Shown piece after piece: positions 7,822-25,753 of a stretch of DNA of 41,518 nucleotides (position 1 is the first letter of the stretch; each line of letters opens with the position of its first letter). The DNA comes from a virus: positions 1 to 41,518 of the IMG/VR virus record IMGVR_UViG_3300042261_000454; one strand, 5' to 3'. A program made the position numbers and the translations under genes. The notes under the pieces were generated by a model, which saw only the letters and a list, made by a program, of their open reading frames with translations, had not been told where the DNA came from and made no database searches.

Positions 7822-7832
7822 GGGTGGTAAAA

Positions 7833-10800
7833 ATGCCTAAATCTTGGGAAGACATAAAGAACGAAAGAGCAAAAAAACAGACCTATAAACAAGAAGGAAC
7901 AACTTGGGAAGACATAAAGAGGAAAAGAGCAGGAATACAAACTCCTGCTCAAAATGCACCCGCCCAAAATGGCGACTACACTTCTATTTTTAAAAACTAT
8001 AAACCCCATCCGCCTGTTGACTTTACTCCAAAGCCAATACAGACAGCACCAGTCCCTACTCCGGAACCTACACCTTTGCAAAGGGCTGTAGCCGATGCCT
8101 ATATTAACAGAGGGCAACCACAAATAGCAGCTATTGTCCCTACATTTAGCAATACCCCCCCTAAGGAGTTACCCGATATGCTAAGAGGCGAGGAAGCCCC
8201 TGCACAAAAGGTAGTGGATTTTGTTAACTCGGTGGGCAACTCCATATTACAAGGGGCGAAGTCTGCATCAAAAGGCATAGTTAATGCCCCGAGAGCCGTT
8301 GATAAGGCGTTTTCACGGTTTGTGTTTGTTCCAGGTTCAGATAAATATGACAAGGGTTTTCTGCCTTTTTTAGACGATTACATAAACTATATAGCCGAAG
8401 GCGAAAAGCAGAGTGAACAAGCTGCAAATCAAAATGCAGGAAGTGTCCAAAAGTTTATTAACTCGGGCGTAAAAGGAGTTACCGAAATGGCTCCCAATAT
8501 CGTAACGGCAATAGGGACAGGTGGGGCAAGTGCAGGAGCTTCACTGTCCGCAGAGGCAACGACAATAGCCAAAGCCCTCTCCCAGCTTAAACCGATGGGG
8601 ATGTTTATGACACAGGCGGCGGGGCAATATGCGTATGAAGCAGAACAAGAGGGAGCTACTCCTGAACAAGCCCTTACATATGGCATATACGGCGGACTGT
8701 CGGAAGGCGTTACAGAGCTATTGCCTTTTGGCATACTCAAAAAAGCCCTAAATGTAGGAGATGATGTGGCTAAACCTTTTGTTAAAAATGGTGTAAAAGG
8801 GCTGCTTGACCGCTTCGGTAAAAAAGGTCTTTTGTGGCTTGAAGAAACAGGGGCTAATGTGGTGCAAGAAATAGCCGTTAATCCTCTTACCCAATTAGCT
8901 AAAAAAGGAGCTTACCAAAATGATATGCCTATCTACGGAGATGGCGGGGTAATTGACCCTAACCAGGTTGTCCCGTCCGCACAAGGGGCATTGGCTATGT
9001 CTCTTGTGCTAACTGCTCTCGGTTTGCCTTTTAGTATGAGGAGTAACCGCTTGGCAACTAAGATAGTGCAGAGCACGGAAAAGCCAACAGAGCAGGTGTT
9101 GAAAGAGTTACAGCAAGCCGTTCAAGAGGATATTAAGAGCGTCCCGATAGGGGAAATTCAAGGCAGTGAAACACCTTTAAACGAACCTGAAGCTCTAAAC
9201 GAGACCACGCTTGTAAGCTCCGCCGCTCAAAAGCCGGTTGAAGTTACCCCCTCTTTTAATCAGGGTCCGACAAAAACCGCTTTGAGTGCAACAACTGCAA
9301 CTTATAAAGAGGGGGACAGCGTTGTTTACGACGGGGAAATATGGACGGTAGCTGGGCAAAATGAGGATGGCACTTATGAGCTTAATCAAAAGGAAAATGG
9401 CATATTCAAAAGTTCGGCTGTGTTTAAAGCCCCCGCAGAGAAAATACAACCAAACAACATAGAAAACCCTGAACTGAATAAGTATGGTCGCAAAGGGCAA
9501 AACGCATTTAAGTCGTGGGCCAAGAATGAATACGTTAACATTGATATTAGTAACACGGAAAGCACTGAGACAAAGCTGTATAAAAACTTCTTTGAGACAT
9601 ATTATAACGGTGGTTTGAACGGTTTACCTATCCCATTGCTGCAAAAAACTGCATCGGTGTTAGACGCTCATTTTCCGCCTTTCTTAGCTGATGTATTTTA
9701 TGTCGCCGGCAAGAACGATGCGACTAAACAACGTGAAGCACCCACACCAACTAAAAACACCCCAGTTGCTAAAACTGAAACGGGTGCTAAAAATACTGTC
9801 GGTGAATATGACGGTATTTACGGTGTAGAAAAGCGTAAACAGGCAACAGGGCTTTGGTTTGCCAATAAGCAGCTAAGGTCGGATATGTTTGCAAAATACA
9901 GCAGTGAAGATACATCTCTCAATCCCACTCAAAAGTATGTTGCTAATGTGGGAAGGATACTTAGTGGGGCGTTTGATGTTTCGCCTTATCTTGTGCAACA
10001 GCCGTCTATTAAAAGGGATAACATAACTAATGAAACAAACAGGGATAGTAAAATTGACACAAAGGGCATTACTGGCATCGCATCATCTACAAAAGTAATC
10101 GTAGTTGAAGAAAATAACAATAAGAGCGAAAAAACGATTAAAGAAGTGCAGGCCGATTTAAAAAAGCGGCCTATTTTACCAAGCGGGTATGAGCTACTTA
10201 CAAAGCCGCAAGCATTATATTATGTGAAGGATGTTTTTATACATAAAGGGGAGTTATTAAAAATAGTTTCTGTCTCAGCTGATGGGCAAGCCATTTATGC
10301 CAAGGGAATTGATAAGTCGGTTAGTATGCTTTATCCTCTTATGGACGCCCTTGAAATGAGGAAAAGTGAAGTTGATTATTCTATTTCTCATTTTGATGAC
10401 GAACTTGCTTTATACAACAAGCGATTTGTAGAACAAAAGCCAACTGCCACTCCTAATGGGGTTCAGCTGAAAGCAGAAGAAATAACAGAAGAGCTATTGC
10501 ACGGAACTTCGCAAACTGAAAATCAGTCTGACCAGGACCAAGAACGCAATAACCCTTCTGATAATAATATACCCAAAAATCTTAAAAAAGTCAAGCCAAA
10601 AAACGAAACTGTTGACAAATCAAACGAAAAGGCAGATAATGAAGATGGAAGTGATGCAGCCCCTGTTATTAAAATAGCAGGCGAGCTGTTAACCAAATTT
10701 ATTGATAAGGGGATTGAATTCTCCCCCGCAAAGCTCTATGAGATTGCTGATAAAGCATTTGGCGGAACAATGGCACAGGGCAAATATTCTATTAAAGATG

Positions 10801-13800
10801 CCTACGATGCCCTTGAATTAGCGGTTAACAAACATATTATGAATAATTTTCTTAAAACGGATGACTTTAATTCTTCTGTTGAGAAAGCAAAAACAGCTGT
10901 TAGGGCGTTCCAGGAAATGCTTAGTAAACTGCCCACGCAAAATAAAAGAACGGTTGAGATGGAGCAGTATCAGCAGTTTTCAACACCGCCAAATATTGCC
11001 TACTTAGCGGCTTGGGTATCTAACATAAACAAAAACGACACAGTTCTTGAACCAAGCGGGGGCATAGGTGGACTTGCTCTGTTTGCAAAATCTTGGGGAG
11101 CAGAGGTCCATCTTAACGAATTATCCAAAAGAAGGCTTGAAATTGTTAAGAACTTAGGGTTTGACGGCTATTATAACCTTAATGCTGAGCAAATAGACAA
11201 CTTGTTGCCCGAAAGTATTAAGCCGAGCGTCGTTATTATGAACCCCCCTTTTAGTTCCGCTGCCACCCGTATGGGGGATAAGAACAGCACAGCTAATGCC
11301 AAAAGGCACATAGAACAAGCCCTTGCAAGATTAGAGCCTAACGGGCGTCTTGTTGCCATATTAGGGCAAGGAATGGAGTATTATTCATCCTTTAAACCTT
11401 GGTGGGACAGTCTATCGGAAAAATACAATGTTAGAGCAAACATCCGTATAAGCGGAGATAATTATAAGAAATATGGAACTTCTTTCGGCATTCAGTTGGT
11501 AGTGATAGACAAAACAGGGAAGACGACCAAACCTATTGAAACAGGTGTTTACGAAGACCTGCTACAAATACCAAAAGTATTGGAGAGTATAAGAAATGAA
11601 AGAGTTAATTACGGTAAACCAAACACAACTATCACAAGCGGTGAAGCTCCTGTTAAAGAACCCGGACCCAACAGGTCTGTATCTGATGCAGGCAATAGAG
11701 GAAACCAACTGGGCGAAAATAAACATCCAAACGGAGCTGAAAAGAGACCTTCGGGAAGCAATAGACCTAAAAGTAGAAACAATGACACCGGAGAAACAAT
11801 ACAAGTTTCTGACAACAGTTCAAGAGGAAAAGCAGGAACAGGACAAGGACAAAACGGCAATGTTAGAGGAGACAGCGAGAGAGGGAGCGTTGCCCCAATT
11901 AGTATCTCAAATGCTCAACAATCTTATGGCGAACTTAGAACTGAACCAATAGCCGAAGACATACAGAGTGAAGATGATGTTTATTCTAACTACACACCTA
12001 AAAAATTAGCTATTAAGGGAGCTAAACCCCATCTTACCACTCTCGTGGAAAGTGCTGCTATGGCGGCTATTGACCCCCCTGACATCGCTTATGCACCTCA
12101 TCTACCCAATTCAATTATAACAAAGGGCGATTTAACTATTGCACAGTTAGAAACCGTTGTTTATGCAGGTCAAGCCCACTCTAAAACCTTGCCAAACGGG
12201 CAAACAAAAGGGTTCTTTATAGGTGACGGCACTGGTGTTGGGAAGGGGCGTGAAATAGCAGGCATAATACTGGATAATTTTAACCAGGGTCGCACAAAAG
12301 CGGTGTGGATTTCCACAGGGCAGAAGCTTTTTGAAAGTGCTAAAAGGGACTGGACCGGGCTTGGGGGCAACGAAAAAGACCTGTTTAATCTATCTGATGT
12401 TAAAGTATCAAACGGCATAATGCTTGATAAAGGCATAATGTATGCGTCGTTTGGAACTTTGCAGGGGGCATCAAAAGCAGACAATAAACGTAACAGGATT
12501 ACACAGATATTAGAGTGGCTTGGTGAAGACTTTGATGGTGTAATTGTTTTTGATGAAGCCCATAAAATGGCAAACGCCGGAAAAAACAGTGAAGCTAAAA
12601 GGGGTAAAAGCAAAGCCACAGCAACCGCTTTACGAGGCATAGAACTGCAAAACCTTCTTCCAAAAGCAAGGGTGGTGTATTCCTCTGCTACCGGTGCTAC
12701 TGAGGTGGGAAATTTAGCTTACGCATCACGATTAGGTTTGTGGGGCGAAGGAACATCATTTGCAGATGTAGATACCTTTATTAGCAAGATTGCCTCGGGC
12801 GGTCTTGCTGCAATGGAACTTGTTGCTCGTGATATGAAAGCTCTTGGTGTTTACATTGCACGTAACCTTTCTTATAAAGGTGTTGAGTATGACACATTAA
12901 CCCACGACATCACCCCCGTGCAGGAAGAGATATATAACACTATGGCGACAGCGTGGCAAACAGTTCTGCAAAATTTGAATAAGGTTTTGTCCGATACTAA
13001 TGCGGATAAAAATTCAAACGCTAAAAAGAACGCAAAAGCGGCTTTTTATGGGGCGATGCAACGCTTTTTCAATCAGGTTATTACATCTATGTCAATGCCT
13101 TCTGTCATAAAAGACATTCAGCGTGAGTTGGATGCCGGGCATAGTGCTGTAATACAGATAGTAAACACAAACCAAGCTGCGACTGACCGCAAGTTATCTG
13201 ATATGGACGAAAATGACAGTTTAGAAGACTTAGATTTAACCCCTTCAGAGGGTCTGATTGACTTTCTTAGAAACAGCTTTCCCGTCTATGAATACGAAGA
13301 GACAGTTGACGATAACGGCAACACCGTGTCCGTTTTAGCGACAGATGGGGACGGCAATCCTATTGTAAGTAGAGAGGCAGTCAAAATAAGAGACGGCTTA
13401 ATAGCTGATATCAAAGAAATGAAAGTTCCTGACGGACCACTTGAAATGCTTTTTGATGCTTTCGGGGTTGAAATGGTGGCGGAAGTTACCGGAAGAACCC
13501 GCCGTATAATTTCAAAAAAACAAGCGAACGGCGAAACAAAAAGGGCAGTTGAAAGCAGGGGTAAGAGCCACAGTCTCGCTGACATCAAAGCATTTCAAGA
13601 CGGTAAAAAAAGAATACTGATATTCAGCAATGCAGGCGGAACAGGGGAGAGTTATCACGCGGATAAAAACGCTAAAAACCAGCAAAAAAGGATTCATTAC
13701 CTGCTACAACCTGGTTGGAGTGCCTTTAATGCTACACAGGGCTTTGGGCGTTCACATAGAACAGGGCAAGTGTTGCCCCCTCTATTTAGGCTTGTTACAA

Positions 13801-16800
13801 CTAATATTACCGGACAGAAACGCTTCGTAACGACAATTGCAAAAAGGCTTGATAGCTTAGGAGCGTTAACGAAAGGGCACAGAGGAACCGGTGGCGGTGG
13901 TATATTCGGACAAAAGGATAATCTTGAAAGCGAAATTGCAAGAGATGCCTTAGCAACATTTTATGGTTGGCTCGGAAGACACAACTCTATTACAGGTATT
14001 GCCGGTAAAGAAATCTTCACAAAAATGGGGCTTTACGAGAAATTTTATGATAAGTTTGGGATATTTAAACCCTCTAACGAGGATATATTAAGAGATATAC
14101 CCACTTTCCTTAATCGTATTCTTTCCCTTGAAGTTAATATTCAGAACGCAACATTTGAACAGTTCAATTACTTTTTTGAACGGCATTTTAGTCACGCCGT
14201 TGAACTCGGGCAAGTTGATGTGGGACTTGAAAACTACATAGCTTCTAAAATTGACGTTAAAGACGAAGTAGTAATTCAAACTGATGAACAGAGCGGAGCA
14301 GAAACCAAATATGTTCAGCTTACTGCATACAAGAAAACAAAGCTAATACCTTACGGAGATTTAACCAACTTCAAGCCGAATTTTGTGGGGCTTGTTAAGG
14401 ACGACAACGGCTCTGTAAAAGCGGTTTATCGCGTTGCTAATAAGACCCTTGCTAATGGGGATATAACAGAGGCATACGAGCTTTTATCTCCTGTTGTTGG
14501 GGTGAAGTCTAATTACATTCAAAAAACCCTTGACGAGAAAACAAAAACTATTCCTAAAACGGATTGGCTTAGGGAGTGGGAAAAAGAGACCGACAACGCC
14601 CCTGAATACACAGAAAACACAGTTCATATGCTTACAGGAACGCTGCTCCCAATATGGGATAAACTACCCACCTCTAACACACGGGTTATGCGGGTCGTTT
14701 CGTCTGACGGCAGACAGTATCTTGGGCGTATTATTCCGCCAAACGAGATTGACATAACTTTGTCTAAGTTTAAGACCGAAAGAACAAAAGAGATTTACAC
14801 GCCTTCAAGTCTTTTCCGTTCTGTTATGGTCAAAGGGTTAGAGATTAAACTTGAAAGGGATAGAACAAAACTATCCCGGAAGCGGGTAAGTGGAGAATAT
14901 CGTCTTGAAATTTCAGGGGATAACTCTTGGCAGTATCAACGCCAAATACCGGGTATAATAACCGAAACCATCCAATATGAAAGGCGTTATTTTATACCAA
15001 CAGACGAAGCTACTGCTCTGCCTATCATAGAACGATTAACTAACTACAATCCGGTTGTAAGTGTTGAAAGCAAGCAAACTGTTTCCGAGGTGGACGCTTT
15101 AACCACAAGCACAGACTATCTCACATCTACATCTAATTCACCCGCAAAATTGGGTGTTGCCACCGGGGTGGACGCTTTAACCACAAGCACAGACTATCTC
15201 ACATCTACATCTAATTCACCCGCAAAATTGGGTGTTGCCACCGGCGATAACTTAACTGGTAAAGCAAAAAAAGCATCCGAGATTGTTAAGCAATTTGAAA
15301 CAAAGATTATGGATGCCACAGGTGAAAACTACATTATTAGAAATGGCAAGAAAACAACCCAGGGTTCTATTGGTGAGTTTAACCGCCGTGAATACTCTGT
15401 TCGCTTACGGAAAGCAAATGACATTCCTACACTGTCCCACGAGGTGGGTCATATGTTTGATACCCTTTATGAACTTAGCACAGGTCGGTCATCCGAAATA
15501 AACGCCGAGCTAACCCAACTTGGGGAAAACACTTCAAAGCCCAACTACAATCCCCCAAGAAAACGTCGTGAAGGTGTGGCGGAGTTTGTCCGTTTATACC
15601 TAACCGATTATGAGAATGCCGTAGCTACATCCCCTTTGTTTGCCTCTTTCTTTGAAAGAAGACTGCCATCGTCCGTGCTAATCGTTCTGAATGAGCTTAA
15701 ATCTGATATTTGGAGCCTTACTAACCTTGACCCCGTTAGCCGAGTTAAATCGTCTATAAGCTTTAAGAGTGATAAAAAGCAAATCAAAATTAGTGAGAAA
15801 TTAAACCCTATTGAGCTATTTAAAACGCTCTATTTTGGAGTAGTTGATGCTACATATCCGGTTGAGGATGCAGCGGGTGAGTTAGGGGGTAGTTCAGCTC
15901 GTCAAAATGTCGTTGAAACCCTCTCTGCTTTAAGAGGATATGAAGGCATAGCGATGTTTGATATTAACCCTCACGGACACGAGGGCAAGTATCAGACTAC
16001 TCTTAACGGGGATAAAGTAGGAGACACTTTGTATGAGATACTTAAACCTATTCATACTGACGAAACTACAAGGACGGACTTTTGGGCGTATGCCGTTGCA
16101 AGGCGTTCAGAGGATTACTTCAACAGAGGACTTGAAATGCCCGACACAAAAGAAACTTATGAAGAAACCGTTCGCATAATGGAAGTTAAACACCCTGAGT
16201 TTAAAGACACGTTTGCTAAACTACTCGTTTATGAGGAAAACAATCTTAATTTACTTGTTGAAGGCGGCATCTATTCAGCGGATAAAATTGCTGAAATAAG
16301 AGAGGCAAACCCTAACCACGTGTCCTTAAAAAGAATACACGATACCCTTAACAGTGTAGCAGGTTCAGGCAGGAGTTTAGGCGGGTCAAAGAAGGTAATC
16401 AAATCATTGAAAGGCGGCGGGCAGGATATTGTTGACCCGGAAGAAAGCATAATTAATAACACATTTATAAACCGTTCAGTTGCAATGCGTAATGCTCTGC
16501 TCGTTAAACTGGCAGATTTAGCAGACAATGCAAAGGGCAAAGGGTTTATAATGGCGAAAGCCAAAACACAATTTAACGTGACTAAATTTAATCTTGAACA
16601 GCTTAAAGAGTTGATACAGCAACAAATGGGCGGGCTATTTGACAATGTTAATCTTGATGTGATGGCAAGAATATTCACGCCTAACTATTTAGCCGGACCT
16701 AATCAGATTGTTGTATATCGCAAAGGGCAACCGGTGTTGTATGATGTCAACCCCTTCTTGTATAATAGCATATCTTCTATGACTAATACACAGCAAAACT

Positions 16801-18299
16801 TGTTTTTAGAAGCCCTTATGTTGGCCGCGAGAATACAAAAAGCGGGTATTATATTTACCCCTAAATATCTTGCTTACAACTTGTCAAGAGACACCATCCA
16901 CAATTTAGTGGCGTCAAGAAACGACATAAGTCCGGTTGATATCGCTTTGGGTTTTGTGTCTGCCTTGACAAGAGATAAGTATTACAAACTGGCACAGACC
17001 GAAGGAGCTTACACTAACTTCTATATGGCTAATGACAGACCCTTTCAGCAAGAGACTATTGACGATATGCTTGCAGGGACATCTCTTGCTAAACGCTTTT
17101 TAAATGCTTTAAGGCATCCTTCAGAAGTTGCTCACGGTATTCTTGAGCCGTTTGAAATGGCGGGTAAAATTGCAGAGTTCAAAAAACATTTAAAAGATGC
17201 GGGGTTTAGCCGTAAAGACATTGGGACGGCAGTGTATCAGGCAAGAGACTTAAACATTGATTTCCGTCGTATGGGGTATTGGACTAAAAAATATCAGCTT
17301 AACCGTTTGATTAATTTCTTGAATAGCCAAATACAAGGCGTTGATAAAACTATAAGACTGTTTGTAGACCCAAAAACGAGGTATAAAGCGACCTTCAAAT
17401 CAATGTTGTATATTACCTTGCCGACGATATTCTTGTGGTGGCTTTGCCGCGATAATGACTATTATAAAAATTTACCCGCATACAGACGAGATTTCTTTTG
17501 GAACATCCCTCTCGGTAACCCCTCTACCACTAAGAACTTCTTGCCTATACCCCGCCCTTTTGAGCTCGGTCTTGTTTTTGGGGCTTTGCCCGAAAGAATA
17601 CTGCGAACACTTTTTGAGGAAGACCCTATCTCTTTTAGTGGTTTTGGTGAGACAGTGCAGCAAGCATTAATTCCGGAGATAATGCCAACAGCTTTTCAAC
17701 CTTTATACGAAGATGCTACCGGTAAAGACTGGCGTAACATCCCTATTCTCAATGCCCAAGATAAGATGCTCGGTGCAACTAATCCCGAATTGCAGTTTAA
17801 CAGCTACACTTCGGAAACATCTAAGGCAATATCTAACATTGTTAAAGGGCTGCCTGTCCCTGACCTTCTTAAGTCGCCAAAACGACTTGACCATTTAATT
17901 AAGGGGTATACCGGAACGATGGGTGATGTTGCTCTTAACTCCGTTGACCAAATAACAGGAGCAAAAGAAGGTGTGCCTGTAATAGGGGGGTTAACACGCA
18001 ATTTTGTTGTTGACGGGCTAAAAAGCTCACAAATACCTGACAACTATTACAGTTATAAAGAGACACTTGACAGTCAATATAAAGTAGCCCTTGTTACCGG
18101 TAAAGCTCCGCAAGGTTATAACAACGATGTCCGTAAATACTTTAATCAAATAAGTGAAGAGTTGACTAAAATTAAGAAAGCGGCATCCTTTTTAGAAAAT
18201 ACCCCAAACCCGGAGAAAGAGCAAAAGCTAAATAAGCTCAGAGAGACAGAACTTAAACTGATGAAGTCAGCGATTGAGCTTTACAACAAAAACAGGTAA
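7833..18299 (+). CDS. Giant polyvalent virion protein: methyltransferase + Strawberry-notch helicase + zincin (DarB-like)
   Basis: A 3488-residue protein taking a quarter of the genome; ATG 7833 follows AGGGTGG. In order: two WEDIK repeats (residues ~4-13 and 24-33); a Gly/Ala-rich amphipathic region (~120-410) with a hydrophobic stretch near 381-400; a small beta domain (~490-540); an N6-adenine-type methyltransferase (~1040-1250: EPSGGIGG near 1073, NPPF at 1137-1140); a low-complexity Gly/Asn/Ser/Arg linker (~1255-1375); a Strawberry-notch-like helicase (Walker A GDGTGVGKGR 1464-1473, DEAH 1574-1577, GRSHRTGQ near 1975); a zincin (HEVGH 2536-2540, Glu in EGVAEF near 2581); and an LPD38-like C-terminus with a hydrophobic helix near 3190-3206. 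Phage P1 DarB joins the same two DNA-modifying activities and enters cells with the DNA. By analogy this may be ejected to block restriction and aid DNA entry. The fusion call is firm; the role is inferred. Confidence 0.85.
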   Translation: MPKSWEDIKNERAKKQTYKQEGTTWEDIKRKRAGIQTPAQNAPAQNGDYTSIFKNYKPHPPVDFTPKPIQTAPVPTPEPTPLQRAVADAYINRGQPQIAAIVPTFSNTPPKELPDMLRGEEAPAQKVVDFVNSVGNSILQGAKSASKGIVNAPRAVDKAFSRFVFVPGSDKYDKGFLPFLDDYINYIAEGEKQSEQAANQNAGSVQKFINSGVKGVTEMAPNIVTAIGTGGASAGASLSAEATTIAKALSQLKPMGMFMTQAAGQYAYEAEQEGATPEQALTYGIYGGLSEGVTELLPFGILKKALNVGDDVAKPFVKNGVKGLLDRFGKKGLLWLEETGANVVQEIAVNPLTQLAKKGAYQNDMPIYGDGGVIDPNQVVPSAQGALAMSLVLTALGLPFSMRSNRLATKIVQSTEKPTEQVLKELQQAVQEDIKSVPIGEIQGSETPLNEPEALNETTLVSSAAQKPVEVTPSFNQGPTKTALSATTATYKEGDSVVYDGEIWTVAGQNEDGTYELNQKENGIFKSSAVFKAPAEKIQPNNIENPELNKYGRKGQNAFKSWAKNEYVNIDISNTESTETKLYKNFFETYYNGGLNGLPIPLLQKTASVLDAHFPPFLADVFYVAGKNDATKQREAPTPTKNTPVAKTETGAKNTVGEYDGIYGVEKRKQATGLWFANKQLRSDMFAKYSSEDTSLNPTQKYVANVGRILSGAFDVSPYLVQQPSIKRDNITNETNRDSKIDTKGITGIASSTKVIVVEENNNKSEKTIKEVQADLKKRPILPSGYELLTKPQALYYVKDVFIHKGELLKIVSVSADGQAIYAKGIDKSVSMLYPLMDALEMRKSEVDYSISHFDDELALYNKRFVEQKPTATPNGVQLKAEEITEELLHGTSQTENQSDQDQERNNPSDNNIPKNLKKVKPKNETVDKSNEKADNEDGSDAAPVIKIAGELLTKFIDKGIEFSPAKLYEIADKAFGGTMAQGKYSIKDAYDALELAVNKHIMNNFLKTDDFNSSVEKAKTAVRAFQEMLSKLPTQNKRTVEMEQYQQFSTPPNIAYLAAWVSNINKNDTVLEPSGGIGGLALFAKSWGAEVHLNELSKRRLEIVKNLGFDGYYNLNAEQIDNLLPESIKPSVVIMNPPFSSAATRMGDKNSTANAKRHIEQALARLEPNGRLVAILGQGMEYYSSFKPWWDSLSEKYNVRANIRISGDNYKKYGTSFGIQLVVIDKTGKTTKPIETGVYEDLLQIPKVLESIRNERVNYGKPNTTITSGEAPVKEPGPNRSVSDAGNRGNQLGENKHPNGAEKRPSGSNRPKSRNNDTGETIQVSDNSSRGKAGTGQGQNGNVRGDSERGSVAPISISNAQQSYGELRTEPIAEDIQSEDDVYSNYTPKKLAIKGAKPHLTTLVESAAMAAIDPPDIAYAPHLPNSIITKGDLTIAQLETVVYAGQAHSKTLPNGQTKGFFIGDGTGVGKGREIAGIILDNFNQGRTKAVWISTGQKLFESAKRDWTGLGGNEKDLFNLSDVKVSNGIMLDKGIMYASFGTLQGASKADNKRNRITQILEWLGEDFDGVIVFDEAHKMANAGKNSEAKRGKSKATATALRGIELQNLLPKARVVYSSATGATEVGNLAYASRLGLWGEGTSFADVDTFISKIASGGLAAMELVARDMKALGVYIARNLSYKGVEYDTLTHDITPVQEEIYNTMATAWQTVLQNLNKVLSDTNADKNSNAKKNAKAAFYGAMQRFFNQVITSMSMPSVIKDIQRELDAGHSAVIQIVNTNQAATDRKLSDMDENDSLEDLDLTPSEGLIDFLRNSFPVYEYEETVDDNGNTVSVLATDGDGNPIVSREAVKIRDGLIADIKEMKVPDGPLEMLFDAFGVEMVAEVTGRTRRIISKKQANGETKRAVESRGKSHSLADIKAFQDGKKRILIFSNAGGTGESYHADKNAKNQQKRIHYLLQPGWSAFNATQGFGRSHRTGQVLPPLFRLVTTNITGQKRFVTTIAKRLDSLGALTKGHRGTGGGGIFGQKDNLESEIARDALATFYGWLGRHNSITGIAGKEIFTKMGLYEKFYDKFGIFKPSNEDILRDIPTFLNRILSLEVNIQNATFEQFNYFFERHFSHAVELGQVDVGLENYIASKIDVKDEVVIQTDEQSGAETKYVQLTAYKKTKLIPYGDLTNFKPNFVGLVKDDNGSVKAVYRVANKTLANGDITEAYELLSPVVGVKSNYIQKTLDEKTKTIPKTDWLREWEKETDNAPEYTENTVHMLTGTLLPIWDKLPTSNTRVMRVVSSDGRQYLGRIIPPNEIDITLSKFKTERTKEIYTPSSLFRSVMVKGLEIKLERDRTKLSRKRVSGEYRLEISGDNSWQYQRQIPGIITETIQYERRYFIPTDEATALPIIERLTNYNPVVSVESKQTVSEVDALTTSTDYLTSTSNSPAKLGVATGVDALTTSTDYLTSTSNSPAKLGVATGDNLTGKAKKASEIVKQFETKIMDATGENYIIRNGKKTTQGSIGEFNRREYSVRLRKANDIPTLSHEVGHMFDTLYELSTGRSSEINAELTQLGENTSKPNYNPPRKRREGVAEFVRLYLTDYENAVATSPLFASFFERRLPSSVLIVLNELKSDIWSLTNLDPVSRVKSSISFKSDKKQIKISEKLNPIELFKTLYFGVVDATYPVEDAAGELGGSSARQNVVETLSALRGYEGIAMFDINPHGHEGKYQTTLNGDKVGDTLYEILKPIHTDETTRTDFWAYAVARRSEDYFNRGLEMPDTKETYEETVRIMEVKHPEFKDTFAKLLVYEENNLNLLVEGGIYSADKIAEIREANPNHVSLKRIHDTLNSVAGSGRSLGGSKKVIKSLKGGGQDIVDPEESIINNTFINRSVAMRNALLVKLADLADNAKGKGFIMAKAKTQFNVTKFNLEQLKELIQQQMGGLFDNVNLDVMARIFTPNYLAGPNQIVVYRKGQPVLYDVNPFLYNSISSMTNTQQNLFLEALMLAARIQKAGIIFTPKYLAYNLSRDTIHNLVASRNDISPVDIALGFVSALTRDKYYKLAQTEGAYTNFYMANDRPFQQETIDDMLAGTSLAKRFLNALRHPSEVAHGILEPFEMAGKIAEFKKHLKDAGFSRKDIGTAVYQARDLNIDFRRMGYWTKKYQLNRLINFLNSQIQGVDKTIRLFVDPKTRYKATFKSMLYITLPTIFLWWLCRDNDYYKNLPAYRRDFFWNIPLGNPSTTKNFLPIPRPFELGLVFGALPERILRTLFEEDPISFSGFGETVQQALIPEIMPTAFQPLYEDATGKDWRNIPILNAQDKMLGATNPELQFNSYTSETSKAISNIVKGLPVPDLLKSPKRLDHLIKGYTGTMGDVALNSVDQITGAKEGVPVIGGLTRNFVVDGLKSSQIPDNYYSYKETLDSQYKVALVTGKAPQGYNNDVRKYFNQISEELTKIKKAASFLENTPNPEKEQKLNKLRETELKLMKSAIELYNKNR
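11596..11952 (+). CDS. Candidate overlapping gene inside the giant protein gene (+1 frame)
   Basis: A 118-residue frame read +1 relative to the giant gene. GGAGAG at 11582-11587 lies 8 bases before its ATG. The product is an ordinary-looking acidic helical protein (for example LSQAVKLLLKNPDPTGLYLM, TPEKQYKFLTTVQEEKQEQD, ending SQMLNNLMANLELNQ), whereas the giant gene's frame in exactly this stretch encodes a Gly/Asn/Ser/Arg low-complexity linker. That asymmetry is what one expects of overprinting, where the linker is the by-product. Against it: the stretch is purine-rich and T-poor, so stops are rare and other frames are also open. No family recognised. Confidence 0.42.
   Translation: MKELITVNQTQLSQAVKLLLKNPDPTGLYLMQAIEETNWAKINIQTELKRDLREAIDLKVETMTPEKQYKFLTTVQEEKQEQDKDKTAMLEETAREGALPQLVSQMLNNLMANLELNQ
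15089..15244 (+). repeat. Perfect 78-base tandem duplication inside the giant gene
   Basis: Bases 15089-15166 and 15167-15244 are identical, adding 26 in-frame residues (DALTTSTDYLTSTSNSPAKL and flanks) twice between the helicase region and the zincin. Perfect identity at all codon positions indicates a very recent duplication, or an assembly effect. Confidence 0.92.
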
Positions 18300-24703: not shown

Positions 24704-24718
24704 GAAAGGATGTTAAAA

Positions 24719-25753
24719 ATGTTTGAATATTTAAAATTCAAGGAGCAGACCGAGGCTGTGTGCCTTAAAGCTGTTGAACAGGACGGCGACGCATTGCGTT
24801 ATGTCAAGGAGCAGACCGAGGCTGTGTGCCTTAAAGCTGTTGAACAGGACGGCGACGCATTGCGTTATGTCAAGGAGCAGACCGAGGCTGTGTGCCTTAA
24901 AGCTGTTGAACGCAACGGCTACGCATTGCGTTATGTCAAGGAGCAGACCGAGGCTGTGTGCCTTAAAGCTTTTGAACAGGACGGCGACGCATTGCGTTAT
25001 GTCAAGGAGCAGACCGAGGCTGTGTGCCTTAAAGCTGTTGAACGCAACGGCTACGCATTGCAGTATGTCAAGGAGCAGACCGAGGCTGTGTGCCTTAAAG
25101 CTGTTGAACAGGACGGCGACGCATTGCGTTATGTCAAGGAGCAGACCGAGGCTGTGTGCCTTAAAGCTGTTGAACGCAACGGCTACGCATTGCGTTATGT
25201 CAAGGAGCAGACCGAGGCTGTGTGCCTTAAAGCTTTTGAACAGGACGGCGACGCATTGCGTTATGTCAAGGAGCAGACCGAGGCTGTGTGCCTTAAAGCT
25301 GTTGAACGCAACGGCTACGCATTGCAGTATGTCAAGGAGCAGACCGAGGCTGTGTGCCTTAAAGCTGTTAAACAGGACGGCGACGCATTGCGTTATGTCA
25401 AGGAGCAGACCGAGGCTGTGTGCCTTAAAGCTGTTGAACAGGACGGCTACGCATTGCAGTATGTCAAGGAGCAGACCGAGGCTGTGTGCCTTAAAGCTGT
25501 TGAACGCAACGGCTACGCATTGCAGTATGTCAAGGAGCAGACCGAGGCTGTGTGCCTTAAAGCTGTTGAACGCAACGGCGACGCATTGCGTTATGTCAAG
25601 GAGCAGACCGAGGCTGTGTGCCTTAAAGCTGTTGAACAGGACGGCTACGCATTGCGTTATGTGGAAATTAGAAGTGAAAAACTGACAAAGCTATATTCCG
25701 TATATGCGGAAGAATATAAAGAGTGGATGAGAAAGGACGTTAAAAATGGCTAA
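24719..25753 (+). CDS. DUF4116-like tandem-repeat protein (14 x 22 residues)
   Basis: A 344-residue protein almost wholly made of 14 exact-length 22-residue repeats, consensus KEQTEAVCLKAVEQDGDALR then YV (residues 8-315), with a short N-cap (MFEYLKF) and a 29-residue helical C-cap. The unit resembles DUF4116 repeats, which form helical arrays presumed to bind partners. Variation is confined to a few positions (V/F, E/K, QD/RN, D/Y, R/Q). ATG 24719 is 8 bases after AAAGGA; the in-frame ATG at 24710 touches that site. Its end overlaps the DUF2815 gene. Function unknown; it sits between nuclease and single-strand binding protein. Confidence 0.85.
   Translation: MFEYLKFKEQTEAVCLKAVEQDGDALRYVKEQTEAVCLKAVEQDGDALRYVKEQTEAVCLKAVERNGYALRYVKEQTEAVCLKAFEQDGDALRYVKEQTEAVCLKAVERNGYALQYVKEQTEAVCLKAVEQDGDALRYVKEQTEAVCLKAVERNGYALRYVKEQTEAVCLKAFEQDGDALRYVKEQTEAVCLKAVERNGYALQYVKEQTEAVCLKAVKQDGDALRYVKEQTEAVCLKAVEQDGYALQYVKEQTEAVCLKAVERNGYALQYVKEQTEAVCLKAVERNGDALRYVKEQTEAVCLKAVEQDGYALRYVEIRSEKLTKLYSVYAEEYKEWMRKDVKNG
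24740..25663 (+). repeat. 14 tandem copies of a 66-base unit
   Basis: Fourteen contiguous 66-base units fill 924 bases in frame. Two distinguishable core variants occur (CAGGACGGC and CGCAACGGC types). Units 3-6 and 7-10 show the same order of variants, a 264-base higher-order repeat, so the array has grown by multi-unit duplication. Confidence 0.97.

Follow-up and report, generated by a model that had tools for sequence, protein, structure and literature searches.

The window, meaning the whole stretch of DNA analysed here, is a virus record of 41,518 bases. It carries a giant polyvalent gene within which a second, short reading frame lies on the same strand. The features at the locus are listed below.

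7824-18299, + strand: host gene, giant polyvalent protein of 3491 aa with a GTG start; methylase, Strawberry-notch-type helicase, HEVGH zincin-like motif, LPD38
11034-11390, + strand: methyltransferase fold before the linker (residues 1071-1189); MTS-like match below the Pfam cut-off; NPPF motif
11582-11587, + strand: GGAGAG, Shine-Dalgarno of the nested gene, spaced 8 bases from its ATG; GGAGG or AGGAG in most relatives
11590-11592, + strand: TAA closing the +1 frame, in frame and two codons upstream of the nested ATG
11596-11952, + strand: very likely nested gene in the +1 frame, 118-aa protein predicted to be helical; ATG start, TAG stop included
12027-12941, + strand: AAA_34, helicase N-terminal domain (Strawberry notch type), after the linker (residues 1402-1706; Pfam E=3.9e-116)
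13437-14231, + strand: Helicase_C_4, C-terminal domain of Strawberry notch homologues (Pfam E=2.2e-77)

The nested ORF lies wholly within the giant ORF, and both frames are open. Across the nested span the main frame reads as a linker rich in G, N, S, R, E and K, leading from the methylase fold to AAA_34. The methylase fold itself was only weakly detected, with MTS below cut-off, but NPPF is present, and Pfam placed LPD38 near the C-terminus, downstream of the helicase domains. A methylase-helicase dyad has been described in polyvalent proteins, including P1 DarB and a Methylomonas SnoC-wHTH protein (Iyer et al. 2017, PMC5512222). The window host gene meets the criterion for this dyad and belongs to it: an adenine-type methylase is followed, in one polypeptide, by a SWI2/SNF2-like Strawberry notch helicase. 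Searching that paper by terms found no mention of overlapping genes.

An earlier note, made from the sequence alone, had described a 118-codon +1 ORF at 11596-11952 with its own GGAGAG 8 bases before the ATG, encoding a helical acidic protein, and a low-complexity linker in the main frame over the same span, between methyltransferase and helicase. The ORF and its start signal held, as did the linker, which was supported by Pfam and by main-frame composition. Helicity was upheld by AlphaFold prediction, and the product proved only mildly acidic (19 D+E, 14 K+R).

Two further observations concern the same record. Within the giant protein, a 26-residue unit (VDALTTSTDYLTSTSNSPAKLGVATG) is perfectly duplicated in tandem shortly before the HEVGH zincin-like motif. 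Elsewhere, a gene with 11 DUF4116 repeats (24710-25753) lies between a DUF2800/PD-(D/E)XK gene and a ssDNA-binding protein gene.

The first reading considered was chance arising from linker composition: the open +1 frame would be a by-product of a hydrophilic linker short of T at codon position 2, without any second gene. Codons with T in the middle encode F, L, I, M and V, and a hydrophilic linker is for this reason poor in +1 stops. T occupied codon position 2 in 10% of linker codons vs 26% in the whole giant gene. The nested ORF is the longest +1 run in the giant gene (119 codons from stop to stop); a run this long arose in 7.7% of trials when codons were permuted over the whole gene, and the nested span stayed open in 3% of trials when synonymous codons were redrawn. 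The probability of an open frame, about 0.03 in the window, reached 0.99 in GC-rich relatives. Since such a linker leaves the +1 frame open by default, evidence from a single sequence is weak. The window alone is barely significant and proves little; comparison decides.

Homologs were retrieved with the main-frame sequence of methylase and helicase, so that the nested frame played no part in their selection. The last fetch took the best 80 of 191 homologs, and 76 loci were left after removal of near-identical ones. A +1 ORF over the linker was present in all 76 non-redundant phage loci, whose GC content ranged from 0.33 to 0.70. It was 87-163 codons long. In most loci its start lay 28-32 codons past a conserved DK landmark, and its end usually fell 30-55 codons short of ESAAM. 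The product over these loci of the probability of finding no stop, given each main protein and its own codon usage, was 10^-75.5. This value is uncorrected for shared ancestry and is overstated for that reason. Nevertheless, composition alone does not explain an open +1 frame in all 76 loci.

The start of the frame was conserved as well. Start statistics were computed on 72 loci, four (L070, L073, L093, L099) having been excluded for lack of a start at the conserved place. Main-frame residue pairs beneath the nested start varied (ND in 24 loci, NE in 13, DA in 9, NG in 6, DE in 5, others in the remainder), and the codons used there always gave a start, ATG in 70 loci and GTG in two (summed log10 P = -30). 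A strong Shine-Dalgarno was found in 63 of the 72 relatives, vs 34 expected from synonymous redraw. GGAGG was formed under main-frame L-E-G and, shifted by one base, under L-G-G in some relatives.

Entry into the +1 frame could alternatively occur by programmed frameshifting, which would fuse the methylase to the +1 protein. In favour of this, several relatives (e.g., L008, L012, L020) have a +1 frame that is open for some codons ahead of the ATG. Against it, the window and most of its close relatives have a +1 stop one or two codons before the ATG, and it is the Shine-Dalgarno and the ATG that are conserved. Because the stop adjoins the ATG, we consider frameshift entry very unlikely and favour internal initiation of a stand-alone product, as had been suggested previously.

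Substitution patterns provided evidence for selection on the +1 protein. Rates pooled by substitution class over diverged pairs were blurred by misalignment, and close pairs are therefore cited. Between L024 and L027, main-frame positions 1, 2 and 3 differed at 0.40, 0.30 and 0.19 of codons in the overlap, vs 0.14, 0.06 and 0.46 in the flanking methylase and 0.11, 0.06 and 0.46 in the flanking helicase. Within L023/L024/L027 and L036/L095, main-frame position 3 was slow (0.19-0.27) and position 1 fast (0.31-0.50) over the overlap, compared with 0.42-0.57 and 0.10-0.26, respectively, in the flanks; L060/L068 and the L082-L084 trio showed the same reversal. Main-frame third positions are thus the slowest sites in the overlap of close pairs, and the pattern flips exactly there. 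When the whole available main frame was scanned for position 3 minus position 1, the overlap was the lowest stretch for 8 of the 10 pairs; for the remaining two, L024/L027 and L014/L015, it came second, behind another nested gene. In close pairs, the +1 products were also more similar than the main-frame linkers (65 vs 50% for L023/L024). This phase flip demonstrates that purifying selection acts on the +1 protein.

The same pattern refutes the composition reading, which we now regard as very unlikely. Linker composition does not predict a conserved Shine-Dalgarno and ATG, slow third and fast first positions, or higher identity in the +1 frame than in the main frame. It also leaves unpredicted the recognition of held-out members by a profile, the confident fold and the intact stand-alone copy described below. 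Another objection is that an RNA or DNA element, rather than a protein, is conserved in the linker, since such elements slow synonymous change too. However, constraint follows the codon phase of the +1 frame, whose wobble position evolves fast, and the products, of 87-163 aa, differ in length by whole +1 codons. This possibility is all but excluded, RNA structure remaining untested.

Taken together, the comparison makes it very likely that 11596-11952 is a genuine same-strand nested protein-coding gene; no expression data are available. The earlier note had proposed that relatives with +1 stops and an intact main frame would refute a gene within a gene, and that a maintained start and stop with constraint in the +1 frame would support it. 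No such refuting relative was met among the 76 phage loci, and a conserved start with Shine-Dalgarno and phase-specific constraint were found.

The nested product behaves as a protein family. A profile built without the window recovered the window ORF with E=2.7e-11, the best of 401 window ORFs, the next scoring 0.16. In a five-fold hold-out, 66 of 76 nested products were recognised, vs 4 of 380 +1 frames obtained by synonymous redraw; the other 10 products were too diverged for the held-out profile. AlphaFold pLDDT rose from 62.5 with 19 relatives to 90.4 (pTM 0.82) with 74 relatives, and the model confidently predicts a seven-helix fold. This fold had no match at E<=0.001 in the PDB or in a viral structure library. 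By sequence, the product had no relative in the PDB and no consistent or significant match in Pfam or PHROGs. Identity with a known family was thus rejected, sequence and fold searches having returned only weak, scattered matches (e.g., Utp13 at E=0.03, and MutL_C in one member).

Outside phages, the nested gene was found in 4 of 4 gammaproteobacterial plasmids (two of Methylomonas, one each of Methylotuvimicrobium and Thioflavicoccus) and was absent from 8 of 8 alphaproteobacterial plasmid homologs sampled, whose linkers are shorter (116-149 residues, vs 160-275 in phages). A tree separated loci with the nested gene from those without it, but support at the dividing edge was only 0.54, so that gain and loss cannot be told apart. 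The family profile matched neither P1 DarB, unlike the window host gene, nor Pseudomonas phage H66 or Bacteroides phage BS-TP4. In the equivalent linker of the last (L115) there is a 121-codon +1 run without profile match, possibly a different nested gene. Annotation did not report the gene: the annotated plasmid and phage records examined gave only the large CDS, three annotated gammaproteobacterial plasmid stretches showed no nested CDS (the PLSDB gene table is incomplete), and searching annotated phages with the 118-aa product found no match.

Searches of genomes for the nested family gave 2 matches in 391 genomes of the class Clostridia, 7 in 398 of the phylum and 1 in 296 of other phyla. 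At six of the loci found, the family member was nested, and the frame covering it encoded methylase and helicase motifs. Three matches in about 1,090 genomes were not nested, one being intact and two decayed. The intact copy, in G671 (L132:6963-7397), encodes a stand-alone protein of 144 aa that is 42-44% identical to the L043 and L038 products, and the other two frames of the same strand contain 10 and 13 stops. No AAA_34 helicase was detected in G671, G624 or G588, with the reservation that the G671 genome sequence may be incomplete. The G671 copy is surrounded by duplicated gene fragments, and its genome belongs to the same phylum as G002.

Other +1 genes are also hosted by linkers of the giant genes, among them the following.

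L024:5015-5350: TnpV (PF14198), +1 frame of an upstream linker, Pfam E=2.9e-25
L027:3662-4018: TnpV (PF14198), +1 frame of an upstream linker, Pfam E=2e-27
L014:3869-4006 and L015:3770-3907: 46-aa basic +1 ORF led by a Shine-Dalgarno, substitution phase flip in the L014/L015 pair

The nested TnpV copies scored 88.9 and 95.8 bits (L024 and L027, respectively) against a curated cut-off of 27, over profile positions 1-111 of 111. Main-frame sequence flanking TnpV on both sides is conserved and changes fast at third positions, a pattern that reverses within TnpV. TnpV resembles the 118-aa protein in occupying the +1 frame of a linker within the same kind of giant gene; it belongs to an unrelated family and also matches 42 other phage records.

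Further small ORFs were observed. Those of L014 and L015 form one family with L075:2869-3033, comprising +1 ORFs of 46-55 aa led by a Shine-Dalgarno within giant genes. Additional Shine-Dalgarno-led +1 ORFs resembling small phage proteins occur at L020:5366-5596, L025:11069-11263, L052:2632-2877, L066:2473-2622 and L105:3373-3567. The L105 ORF matched phrog_2423 weakly (E=2e-4), and apart from TnpV nothing clear was found for the other small nested ORFs in PHROGs. Outside the main site, 38 of 39 nested candidates with a Shine-Dalgarno and ATG were in the +1 frame. Composition accounts for part of this excess, and most of the candidates are unproven.

These data suggest a bolder reading, which we judge as apt to prove wrong as right. 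Linkers of giant methylase-helicase polyvalent genes would be a recurrent platform hosting small pre-existing +1 genes (the seven-helix family, TnpV, the 46-aa basic protein and probably others), with the giant frame reading through them as a disordered spacer. The previous suggestion of overprinting, in the strict sense of a young nested gene, was not shown, since the nested frame is the ordered and better conserved one, a stand-alone copy exists, and TnpV is a known family nested in another linker.

We propose that ribosomes would start at the nested Shine-Dalgarno and ATG within the giant methylase-helicase mRNA, expression being inferred. A separate 118-aa seven-helix protein would be made from the +1 frame, and in the giant frame these bases would encode a disordered spacer that separates methylase from helicase. 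Nesting would tie synthesis of the small protein to that of the giant one, and independent initiation would permit an excess. The nested protein may then serve the methylase-helicase module, in its anti-restriction role, as a small accessory. This module is thought to protect phage and conjugative-plasmid DNA from restriction on entry. DarB-type dyads have been linked to anti-restriction, with DNA protection described for P1 DarB (PMC5512222) and not reported for the window protein. The position of the nested gene in the methylase-helicase linker, both in phages and in conjugative plasmids, is a point for an accessory role. Without binding or expression data this role is only inferred, and in our view it falls a little short of being probable; the earlier proposal of a partner or inhibitor of the giant enzymes likewise remains inference only. 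An obligate partnership is weakened by the eight alphaproteobacterial plasmid dyads that do without the nested gene and by the lack of a detected AAA_34 helicase in the possibly incomplete genome with the stand-alone copy. The same stand-alone copy and dyads leave it possible that the protein acts more widely than the dyad.

Alternatively, the nested protein could be real and independent of the giant enzyme: a free-standing mobile-element factor, such as a regulator or counter-defence protein, for which the linker is mere coding space. The intact copy in a genome without detected AAA_34 helicase supports this view, as does the hosting of unrelated genes such as TnpV by other linkers. Against it, methylase-Strawberry notch genes were the only other places in which the family was found, a profile search of 123 loci gave no second copy, and two of the three non-nested matches are decayed. 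We consider this alternative possible and rank it below the accessory role.

Nested genes are already a known kind. Rz1 inside Rz is a same-strand nested phage gene of the embedded class (PMC9144972), and phiX174 B, K and E are same-strand nested phage genes too. As in these cases, one gene of the window encloses the whole of a second, which has its own start and is read in a different frame. The genes and their place differ, the window having a giant polyvalent gene as host and the overlap in an inter-domain linker; its nested protein is ordered, in contrast to a host frame that looks disordered. The literature searched yielded no description of the nested family, its place or the depth of its conservation.

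The accessory reading would give anti-restriction research a testable second component, carried by a nested gene with a new predicted fold that persists in phages ranging from 33 to 70% GC as well as in conjugative plasmids and prophage-like loci. A nested frame that looks ordered, facing a host frame that looks disordered, is a clear case bearing on which of two overlapping genes is older; if the hosting-platform reading is true, overprinting would have produced the host frame rather than the nested gene. Small mobile-element proteins encoded within giant genes would then form a hidden layer missed by annotation. The "linkers" of giant mobile-element proteins are worth reading in the +1 frame before being dismissed.
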